NCBI RefSeq assembly: GCF_002741945.1 | Contig: NZ_MDVN01000022.1 | Location: 744,001-808,000, forward strand | Reading direction: 5' to 3' | From: Gaetbulibacter sp. 4G1 | Lineage (GTDB): Bacteria; Bacteroidota; Bacteroidia; Flavobacteriales; Flavobacteriaceae | DNA length: 64,000 bases | Shown: positions 8,798 through 11,490 of the stretch, piece by piece | Layout: every line of letters starts with the position of its first letter | Numbering within the stretch: position 1 is the stretch's first letter | The notes under the pieces: model-generated | Databases searched by the model: none | What the model saw: the letters and a program-made list of their open reading frames with translations, nothing else | Told to the model about the DNA's origin: nothing | Program-made: the position numbers and the translations under genes

Positions 8798-9874
8798 ATG
8801 AGTAAAGATTTGCCACAATCAAACCCGTCTGAAGAAGTCGATTTAGGACAATTATTCAAGCTTATAGGTAATATGTTTGAAAGGTTGTTTAAGTTTATTG
8901 GTAGCATTTTTAACAAGTTGTTTTTAGCATTTGTATGGTGCGTATTTTTCTTAAAGAAACACTTTGTAAAATTTGTTATAGCAGGAGTAGTTGGAATTGC
9001 ATTAGGAATATTGCAAGAAAAATCCGCCAAACCCGTTTACAAATCTTATATTGTTGTAAAACAAAATTACTATACAGGAGAGAGCCTGAATAAGTCTATT
9101 GGATATTACAATACATTAATCAATCAAGGAAATATTGACTTATTAAAAAACATGCTGAACATAAAAGGTTTAGACGCATCATCTATTTTAGGGTTTGAAT
9201 TAGAATCAGCAGTCACTGAAAATGAAAAACTGAAGGCATTTGATTACTATCTTAGTACCTTAGACTCTACTTTGGCGTCTAAAGTAGATTACGAAACCTA
9301 TATTGATAATTCAAAAGATTATAACTTTAAACTTCAAAAAATTGTTATTAAATCCAATAGAAGTGAAAATTATATTAATGTTTTTGAAAAAATTATAGAA
9401 AGCATTAATTCTAATGAATATTTTAAAAGAGAACAAGCTAAAGATTTAAAACAATTAAGAAGCGACTCTATATTTATAGAGAATTCATTAAGGAAATCTG
9501 ATACATTATTAGCGGTTTATAAAGAAGCAATTATAAAATCAGCAGAAAGGAACAATGATTTTCAAGGAAAAATTATGATTGAAGGAAGAGATAATGTTAG
9601 TAGTAGCACAAAAGAGTTTGAATTATATAATAAGACTATAGAATTAAGAGAAAAGTTAGTTAAAATTGGAAGGCAAATTGATGACAATAAGCATATTATT
9701 GAAGTAATGTCTAGTAAGCAAAACATAGGAACTATTGATAATCGGAAGGAATTTTTAGGAAAATTATTAAATATTAAAATTTTGTACGCGCTTTTTTTAG
9801 TGATGTTGACGTTTATATTCTTGTTAGGAATAAGTCTTGTTAAGTTTTTAGAACGTTATAAAGATAAAGTATAG
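8798..9874 (+). CDS. Wzz-like polysaccharide chain-length determinant
   Basis: Inner-membrane protein at the head of the polysaccharide locus. The 358-residue product has a cytoplasmic N-terminus, a hydrophobic segment around 40-70, a long periplasmic region that is mostly helical with heptad character (about 180-300), and a second transmembrane helix near 325-345 followed by a short basic tail. This two-helix topology with a helical periplasmic hairpin is that of Wzz/PCP co-polymerases that set polymer length. No Walker motifs, so no fused tyrosine kinase. The assignment rests on topology and position, not on a conserved motif. Confidence 0.7.
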   Translation: MSKDLPQSNPSEEVDLGQLFKLIGNMFERLFKFIGSIFNKLFLAFVWCVFFLKKHFVKFVIAGVVGIALGILQEKSAKPVYKSYIVVKQNYYTGESLNKSIGYYNTLINQGNIDLLKNMLNIKGLDASSILGFELESAVTENEKLKAFDYYLSTLDSTLASKVDYETYIDNSKDYNFKLQKIVIKSNRSENYINVFEKIIESINSNEYFKREQAKDLKQLRSDSIFIENSLRKSDTLLAVYKEAIIKSAERNNDFQGKIMIEGRDNVSSSTKEFELYNKTIELREKLVKIGRQIDDNKHIIEVMSSKQNIGTIDNRKEFLGKLLNIKILYALFLVMLTFIFLLGISLVKFLERYKDKV

Positions 9875-9989
9875 TTGGAAGATACTATTTTAATAACAGG
9901 TGGCGCAGAGTTTATAGGATCGAATTTCATTCCCTATTATTTAAAATAGCAACCTTAAAATAGTTAATTTAGATAAATTAACCTATGCA
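9875..9989 (+). pseudogene. rfbB: 5' remnant of rmlB (dTDP-glucose 4,6-dehydratase)
   Basis: Starting at TTG 9875, the frame encodes ILITGGAEFIGSNF, the start of an RmlB Rossmann domain; the third glycine of GGxGxxG has become Glu. A stop follows at 9947. One base out of frame the sequence continues with NLKIVNLDKLTYA, the next conserved RmlB stretch. About 40 of some 350 codons remain, carrying a stop, a frameshift and a missense change. The fragment ends at a junction with an rmlA tail at ATGCA (9985-9989). Confidence 0.85.
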
Positions 9990-10155
9990 AGCATCACAAT
10001 TTGTACAAGTTATTGAAGAGCGACAAGGGCAGAAAATAGGATGTATTGAAGAAGTAGCATATAAAATGAGGTATATAAATAAATCTCAACTCAATAAACT
10101 AGCAGAACTTTTGCTTAAAAATGGATACGGAAAATACCTTCAACAATTACTATAA
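9985..10155 (+). pseudogene. rfbA: 3' remnant of rmlA (glucose-1-phosphate thymidylyltransferase)
   Basis: The frame from 9985 to the stop at 10153 encodes the last 56 residues of RmlA: SQFVQVIEERQGQKIGC, then EEVAYKM and the terminal LLKNGYGKYLQ. The catalytic nucleotidyltransferase core (G-rich pyrophosphorylase motif) is absent. The upstream neighbour is the start of rmlB, so a deletion has fused the two. An ATG at the junction could allow translation of the tail, but it would have no active site. Intact rmlC starts three bases later. Confidence 0.85.
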
Positions 10156-10157
10156 TC

Positions 10158-10706
10158 ATGACAGTTGAAGAAACAAATTTAAAAGGGTGCTTTGTAGTTA
10201 CTCCAAAGATTATTAGAGACAAAAGAGGTTACTTTTTTGAAAGCTTTACCAAGGCTCAATTTGAAGCTAAAACAGGAATAATGGCCAATTTTATTCAAGA
10301 TAATCAGTCAAAATCTTCAGCCGGCGTTTTAAGGGGGTTACATTTTCAAACAGAAGAGTTCTCTCAAGCAAAACTCGTTAGAGTTATTAAAGGAAAAGTT
10401 TTAGACGTTTGTGTAGATTTAAGAAAAGAATCGGCGACATTTGGTAAACATTTCTCAATAATTTTAGATAACATTAAACACAAACAACTGTATATTCCTA
10501 AAGGATTTGCTCATGGGTTTTTAGTTTTAGATGACGACACTATTTTTTCTTACAAATGTGATAATTACTACAACAAAACTTCAGAAAAAGGTATTATTTA
10601 TAACGATAAGACACTTAATATAGATTGGGGTTTTCCAAAGGAAAATTTAATACTTTCAGAAAAGGACAAAGTGTTACCAACATTTGAAACCTATTCTAAT
10701 GAATAA
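10158..10706 (+). CDS. rfbC: dTDP-4-dehydrorhamnose 3,5-epimerase
   Basis: Third step of dTDP-L-rhamnose synthesis: double epimerisation of dTDP-4-keto-6-deoxyglucose. The 182-residue product has the normal length. Seen are RDKRGYFFESF near residue 22-32, the RGLHFQ motif with catalytic His62, and YIPKGFAHGFLVL, which belongs to the cupin core. The sequence looks intact despite decay of the two upstream rml genes. It overlaps rmlD by eight bases. The substrate must come from RmlA and RmlB encoded elsewhere, or the enzyme is idle or acts on another keto-sugar. Confidence 0.95.
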   Translation: MTVEETNLKGCFVVTPKIIRDKRGYFFESFTKAQFEAKTGIMANFIQDNQSKSSAGVLRGLHFQTEEFSQAKLVRVIKGKVLDVCVDLRKESATFGKHFSIILDNIKHKQLYIPKGFAHGFLVLDDDTIFSYKCDNYYNKTSEKGIIYNDKTLNIDWGFPKENLILSEKDKVLPTFETYSNE

Positions 10707-11490
10707 AAGAGTTTTAGTAACAGGGGCAAATGGTCAATTAGGAAAAACCATTAATGAGTTGTTTTTTATAAACGAAAGCAATCTTGAATTTACATTTGTT
10801 ACTAAAAAAGAATTAGACATTACTCAAAAGTTAGAACTAAAATTGTTTTTTGAAAATAATGAATTCGATTTTTGCATAAACTGTGCAGCTTACACTAATG
10901 TGGAACAAGCTGAAAAAACACCAAAAGCAGCTTACAAAGTAAACGGAGAAGGTGTAAAGCATTTAGCTCAAGTTTGCAAAGAAACAAATACTATATTAAT
11001 TCATGTTTCAACAGACTATGTTTTTGATGGAGAGAAAATAGAGCCTTATACTATAGAAGATGAACCAAACCCTATTAACGAGTATGGGAAATCAAAACTA
11101 CTAGGTGAGCAATATATTCAAAAAATTTTAGAAAAGTTTTTTATAATTAGAACCTCGTGGTTATATAGTGAAAAATATGGAAATAATTTTTATAGAACCA
11201 TTTTAGAAAAGGCTAAAAAAGAAAAAGAACTTTTTGTAACGGATGAACAAACTGGTTGTCCTACTAATACTGAAAGTTTAGCATGTTTTATAATAAGAAT
11301 TATTTTAAGCAAATCAAAAAACTATGGAATAAAACATTTTTGTGATGAAAAAATAATGACTTGGTATGGTTTTGCAGAACAGATATTAAATGAACATTTA
11401 TATAAAGATATAAAAATTGTTAAGGCAAAGAATTATCGTACTTTTGCACTTAGACCTAAGTATAGTATTCTAACAAATTTACCCAAATGA
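10699..11490 (+). CDS. rfbD: dTDP-4-dehydrorhamnose reductase
   Basis: Final step of dTDP-L-rhamnose synthesis, NAD(P)H-dependent. The 263 residues are slightly short for RmlD. The SDR features are present: nucleotide loop GANGQLG (8-14), AAYTNVEQAE, STDYVFDG and the YGKSKLLGE catalytic Tyr-x3-Lys. A TTG at 10684 would extend it by five residues, but ATG 10699 overlaps the rmlC stop as ATGAATAA and gives the family-typical N-terminus. It ends in an ATGA overlap with wecB. Confidence 0.94.
   Translation: MNKRVLVTGANGQLGKTINELFFINESNLEFTFVTKKELDITQKLELKLFFENNEFDFCINCAAYTNVEQAEKTPKAAYKVNGEGVKHLAQVCKETNTILIHVSTDYVFDGEKIEPYTIEDEPNPINEYGKSKLLGEQYIQKILEKFFIIRTSWLYSEKYGNNFYRTILEKAKKEKELFVTDEQTGCPTNTESLACFIIRIILSKSKNYGIKHFCDEKIMTWYGFAEQILNEHLYKDIKIVKAKNYRTFALRPKYSILTNLPK

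Follow-up and report, generated by a model that had tools for sequence, protein, structure and literature searches.

On the forward strand of the genome of Gaetbulibacter sp. 4G1 (G000; 3.89 Mb), an upstream gene is followed by a remnant of the start of rmlB, a remnant of the end of rmlA, and then rmlC and rmlD. Positions are coordinates of the window, the whole 64,000-nucleotide stretch that was analysed (contig C21, 744001-808000), and the comparisons were made with three other genomes of the genus, G001, G002 (Wocania ichthyoenteri) and G003. The upstream gene (8798-9874, 358 amino acids, defined as an open reading frame) serves as the anchor for the orthologous locus, as an equivalent gene occupies the equivalent position in G001, G002 and G003. 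Neither Pfam nor NCBIfam gave a match for it at E 0.001; from its appearance alone it is possibly a polysaccharide chain-length (Wzz-like) protein. This gene is diverging fast, with 63% identity to its G002 counterpart compared with 93% for the gene that precedes it. Its stop codon (9872-9874) lies directly before the rmlB remnant. At the other end, rmlC (10158-10706) begins 2 bases past the stop codon of the rmlA remnant. As had been predicted, both rmlC and rmlD (10699-11490) are intact, and they exceed the curated cut-offs of their families (TIGR01221, 220.9 bits against a cut-off of 155.75, and TIGR01214, 265.2 bits against 224.05).

The original prediction was that the stretch from 9875 to 10155 joins the start of rmlB to the 3' end of rmlA (56 codons), and this description is borne out by alignment with the congeners and by a family match. 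The rmlB remnant (9875-9988) was delimited by alignment to rmlB of G001 and G002. Its ATG is gone and an in-frame TTG is found instead at 9875. The predicted Gly-to-Glu change, stop and frameshift are all present in this alignment: the change falls within the motif GGAGFIG, and an additional base puts the stop in frame. A loss of 6 bases accompanies these lesions. The rmlA remnant (9985-10155) consists of the final 56 codons and the stop of this gene in a frame that is still open, from an ATG at 9985 to the stop codon at 10153-10155, and the residues encoded by 9988-10155 match positions 231-284 of the 286 in TIGR01207 (E 2.1e-16). Each piece thus aligns with the gene for which it is named, at the expected end, and the alternative that the pieces might not match RmlB and RmlA finds no support.

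A DNA search of 21 genomes with window positions 9780-10300 as the query found both pieces of the scar in G001 and G002, where they are far apart. At the orthologous place these genomes carry the upstream gene, an intact rmlB (335 codons in both) and rmlA (286 and 285 codons, respectively), and then rmlC and rmlD. Relative to these arrangements, G000 is missing 1,589 bp when compared with G002 and 2,040 bp when compared with G001, whose rmlB and rmlA are separated by an insert of some 0.45 kb with an additional gene. The proposal of an ancestral rmlB-rmlA order from which about 1.6 kb was lost is therefore upheld, and the congeners compared include none that shares the joined sequence without rmlBA nearby, which would have spoken against it; the two with this allele keep rmlBA. 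The locus of G003 also possesses intact rmlB, rmlA, rmlC and rmlD, in the form of a different allele (its RmlB is 55% identical to that of G002). G003 is nearest to G000 in a tree of one 559-codon gene (support 100), and because this nearest genome has the different allele, the state before the deletion was read from G001 and G002. From these alignments, we regard a deletion of most of rmlB and rmlA in G000 as good as certain. Separately, the G003 locus (L129, C1:298500-311000) has the appearance of a whole-block replacement.

The sequences at the join bear on how the deletion took place. The match of the rmlB piece with the relatives reaches position 9988 and that of the rmlA piece starts at 9984 (G002) or 9985 (G001), so that the two matches overlap and the breakpoint sits where it had been placed originally. 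The left parent reads TTATGCT in G002 and TTATGCG in G001, the right parent reads TTATGCAAG in G002 and TAATGCAGG in G001, and G000 itself reads CTATGCAAG. The four bases ATGC (9985-9988) are common to both parents in both relatives and constitute a safe overlap of 4 bp. A parent like G002 would share CTTATGC (7 bp) and one like G001 only ATGC. The original prediction was of a five-base microhomology, ATGCA (9985-9989). The site and the ATGC stand, but the fifth base is unproven and the length was overstated: inclusion of base 9989 requires that the lost alanine codon of RmlB was GCA, and the relatives have GCT and GCG. When 200,000 random pairs of breakpoints were drawn between the rmlB and rmlA of each relative, overlaps of 4 bp or more arose in 2.7% of the pairs, of 5 bp or more in 1.0% and of 7 bp or more in 0.1%. 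With chance overlaps in this range, the evidence that the deletion was mediated by microhomology is suggestive but falls short of being decisive. Bacterial deletions at short direct repeats (PMC3411829) resemble the G000 event in that a segment on the kilobase scale is lost. They differ from it in the length of the repeat, the text of that study giving a deduced microhomology cut-off of 8 bp for true deletions, compared with the 4-7 bp of the G000 join.

How long ago the deletion occurred can be approached from the substitutions within the scar. Between G000 and G002, with gapped columns dropped, third codon positions of the scar differ at 27 of 90 sites, and first and second positions taken together at 12 of 182. 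For the same region in G001 and G002, both of which are intact, the values are 23 of 92 and 8 of 186. This codon-position pattern suggests that the scar diverged mostly while it was still coding and that the deletion came late on the G000 branch; judged by these substitutions, the deletion is recent. When a branch model was fitted to the rmlA tail, an omega of 1 was rejected for G000 (P=0.008), and the G000 branch could not be separated from the background (P=0.26). The tail carries four amino-acid changes unique to G000, with none unique to G001 or to G002. It is possible that this open tail, which ends so close to rmlC, is itself translated and in this way maintains the translation of rmlC. 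The corresponding remnants in two other lineages that are described below (L071 and L275) contain stops.

RmlA and RmlB make dTDP-4-keto-6-deoxyglucose, an intermediate common to several dTDP-sugars, and RmlC and RmlD catalyze the steps dedicated to rhamnose. One of the two possibilities proposed originally was that rmlA and rmlB exist elsewhere in the genome. This was borne out: a search found exactly one rmlB and one rmlA above the curated cut-offs, both of full length, as a pair at C23:197761-199665. In G001, G002 and G003, too, a single rmlA and a single rmlB exceed the cut-off, all at the ancestral place, and G000 is the only one of the four genomes with its rmlBA in the other locus. The C23 pair is of a diverged type, with RmlB 53% and RmlA 62% identical to the G002 proteins. 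It is located in a second polysaccharide locus, the flank of which is common to all four genomes up to a UDP-sugar dehydrogenase gene. Past this gene, G000 carries a cassette of rmlB, rmlA, two FdtA-like genes (PF05523 in both), a hexapeptide transferase gene and a DegT aminotransferase gene (PF01041). In G001, G002 and G003 the comparison covers 0.5-1.5 kb beyond the dehydrogenase gene, and the cassette site is occupied by a different gene, a flippase by appearance, which is truncated at the stretch boundary in two of these genomes. FdtA-type enzymes act on dTDP-4-keto-6-deoxyglucose, and the family matches point to the C23 cassette as a putative cluster for another dTDP-sugar. A paper on P. 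putida describes the same intermediate, which RmlB produces and RmlC consumes, as a precursor of dTDP-3-acetamido-fucose also (PMC8184846).

Two readings that would do away with a deletion in place may be considered against these comparisons. If the assembler had simply dropped 1.6 kb, the scar would be an artefact, and it is true that the join is known here from the assembly alone. However, the rmlB piece bears damage of its own, namely the start loss, frameshift and stop expected of a real pseudogene, the sole full-length copies in the assembly are those of the diverged type, and a similar fusion is found in Aequorivita capsosiphonis (see below). The first two of these observations led us to reject this very improbable reading. 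The other supposes that G000 acquired, by recombination, a foreign block from which rmlBA was already missing. Replacement of whole blocks does happen at this locus, as the different rmlBACD allele of G003 attests, but in G000 both remnants together with rmlC and rmlD are about 80% identical to the allele of G001 and G002, much like the flank upstream of the join. Since both sides match the same allele, an imported block was rejected too, as scarcely credible.

Parallels to the loss of rmlBA with retention of rmlCD were sought in other genomes. We surveyed 210 stretches around rmlC, of which 196 are distinct by rmlC sequence, with the window itself excluded. These were drawn from a subset of genomes; 80 were chosen for their similarity to the G000 rmlC and 130 for their score against the rmlC model. 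An intact rmlA lies within 2.5 kb upstream of rmlC in 175 of the 196 loci and downstream of it in 7, some of the latter being truncated where the stretch ends. One of the remaining loci ends at a contig edge and 13 are without an intact rmlA. Six of these 13 present rmlC-rmlD at the same conserved locus with neither an intact rmlB nor rmlA: Gelidibacter sediminis (L037, identical to L269), A. capsosiphonis (L071), Myroides guanonis (L101) and members of three further genera (L213, L258 and L275). The other seven (L100, L186, L204, L281, L288, L299 and L302) represent other arrangements or contexts. Among them, L288, L299 and L302 show an rmlC-like gene after two similar-looking genes, with no rmlD in the stretch; this gene is perhaps an epimerase with another role.

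In A. capsosiphonis the start of rmlB is fused to the very end of rmlA. Of the 27 other Aequorivita genomes, 24 have the two pieces at a distance from each other and none has them joined; in the remaining three (G270, G282 and G287) the search did not recover both. In four aligned Aequorivita genomes the pieces are separated by 1,628-2,046 bp. At the A. capsosiphonis join the matched pieces are separated by four bases, and an overlap is not clearly seen. L275 retains a decayed rmlA end with stops, and a search there for a piece of rmlB found none; its rmlC and rmlD are still above the cut-offs, which implies that these genes can outlast the loss of rmlBA. No remnant of rmlBA was found in L037, L101, L213 or L258. 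With the window there are thus seven lineages, three of them with remnants, and the recurrence of rmlBA loss with rmlCD kept is real in the surveyed sample. Among the matches listed from a search of the open-licence literature, there was no account of the scar or of recurrent rmlBA loss in the Flavobacteriaceae.

A full rmlA is present elsewhere in the genome in all seven lineages. A second rmlB is above the cut-off in five, and in the other two an open reading frame beside rmlA was recognized by eye. In five of the seven, the three genes nearest the second rmlBA include one whose product probably also uses the intermediate: FdtA in G000, a DegT aminotransferase in the genomes of L071, L037 and L213, and an NDP-hexose 2,3-dehydratase in that of L275. 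No user was recognized near the second rmlBA of the L101 and L258 genomes, where one neighbour in each was examined with Pfam and the rest were judged by eye. A second copy is not the rule in this group, as among 50 genomes with rmlA at the locus, of the 72 intact-locus loci first intended for this count, 47 carry a single rmlA and 3 carry two at a threshold of E 1e-50. The genomes of L028, L064 and L069, which were added, have one rmlA each above the cut-off.

We also asked whether rmlC and rmlD bear signs of continued selection in G000. The pairwise dN/dS values for G000-G002 proved to be like those for G001-G002, in the comparison that had been suggested at the outset (0.118 and 0.144 for rmlC, 0.191 and 0.203 for rmlD). 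In a codon branch model, fitted with a custom script and not cross-checked with a standard program, the omega of rmlC is unchanged in G000 (0.067 vs 0.068) and that of rmlD is higher (0.19 vs 0.08, P=0.036 uncorrected). An omega of 1 was rejected for both genes (P=0.0006 for rmlC and P=0.0097 for rmlD). The same fit for the upstream gene gave saturated branch lengths and was excluded from the argument. The raised omega of rmlD could be an early relaxation. Because the deletion is young, however, these omega values cover mostly the time before it, and for the same reason the intact state of rmlC and rmlD in G000 says little about their use since the loss. The comparative argument for use of these genes is stronger than the selection figures.

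These considerations bear on a third alternative, that the rhamnose branch of G000 is dying: the surface sugar would have changed, as had also been proposed originally, rmlBA would have been lost first, and rmlC and rmlD would be intact simply for lack of time. The youth of the scar and the mildly raised omega of rmlD speak for this alternative. On the other hand, the omega of rmlC has not moved, and full rmlC and rmlD frames persist where rmlBA has decayed (L275) or where no remnant of it was found (L037, L101, L213 and L258). We consider a dying branch unlikely, with a chance that is nevertheless appreciable. The explanation that we favor, and think likely, is a deletion together with supply of the intermediate in trans from the C23 pair, with rmlC and rmlD kept in use. 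As the comparison with the relatives shows, a surface-polysaccharide locus with the operon rmlB-rmlA-rmlC-rmlD lost some 1.6 kb that took in most of rmlB and rmlA; slippage or end joining at a repeat of 4-7 bp is the probable cause. The C23 pair probably provides both loci with the common intermediate, so that the local rmlBA would have become redundant and its loss tolerated, and rmlC and rmlD would stay in use. The two of seven lineages without a recognized user near the second rmlBA weigh against supply in trans, and gain before loss is a presumed order of events. A wider generalization, that Flavobacteriaceae repeatedly lose rmlBA and keep rmlCD at their main surface-polysaccharide locus once another locus has rmlBA for a different dTDP-sugar, so that the two polymers become co-dependent, is offered tentatively, at somewhat less than even chances.

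Supply in trans has a laboratory precedent. As reported for E. coli EC958 (PMC3789825), mutants of rmlC or rmlD lose the O antigen and mutants of rmlA or rmlB keep most of it except for the very long chains; the authors of that report suggest that RffH and RffG might explain the O antigen that is kept. The compensation is incomplete, since the very long chains and serum resistance are lost. A review describes the RmlA/RmlB and RffH/RffG pairs as at least partially redundant (PMC7439462), and in the words of the P. putida paper, redundancy within the dTDP-rhamnose pathway is nothing unusual (PMC8184846). The resemblance to G000 is that a second pair, RffH/RffG (RmlA-ECA and RmlB-ECA), intended for another dTDP-sugar can supply the intermediate, with rmlC and rmlD still required. 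E. coli, however, normally has both pairs, and it was laboratory mutation that removed one of them, with partial compensation, whereas G000 has lost its local pair in nature. A further likeness is seen in the account of wzy in Salmonella group B1 (PMC3715488), where a gene was gained outside the O-antigen cluster and the original decayed to a remnant inside it. There, a polymerase was involved and the linkage changed; in G000 the genes are for a shared precursor and no structural change would be expected. The mechanism is thus known in kind; what is new is that the shared half of the pathway has been lost in nature, and repeatedly.

At the G000 locus a pathway has been divided in nature, and cleanly, at the point where it branches: the common steps are lost and the dedicated ones kept, and there are parallels in other genera. 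If the intermediate is indeed supplied in trans, two surface polymers hang on one exchangeable cassette, and swapping one locus could silently disable the other. Polysaccharide loci, usually seen as independent modules of exchange, would then be metabolically tied, with consequences for the prediction of surface structure from gene clusters and for the reading of clusters that look incomplete.

A side observation concerns the space between rmlB and rmlA. The insert in G001 (L022:3803-4256) encodes a gene of the 23S_rRNA_IVP family (PF05635, E 2.5e-40), and its flanks resemble mutually inverted copies when inspected by eye. By eye also, a look-alike open reading frame lies in the rmlB-rmlA gap of M. 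guanonis (L175:8020-8382), and another small one is found between these genes in Aequorivita (L173:8237-8620). Small solitary genes may thus tend to settle in this gap.
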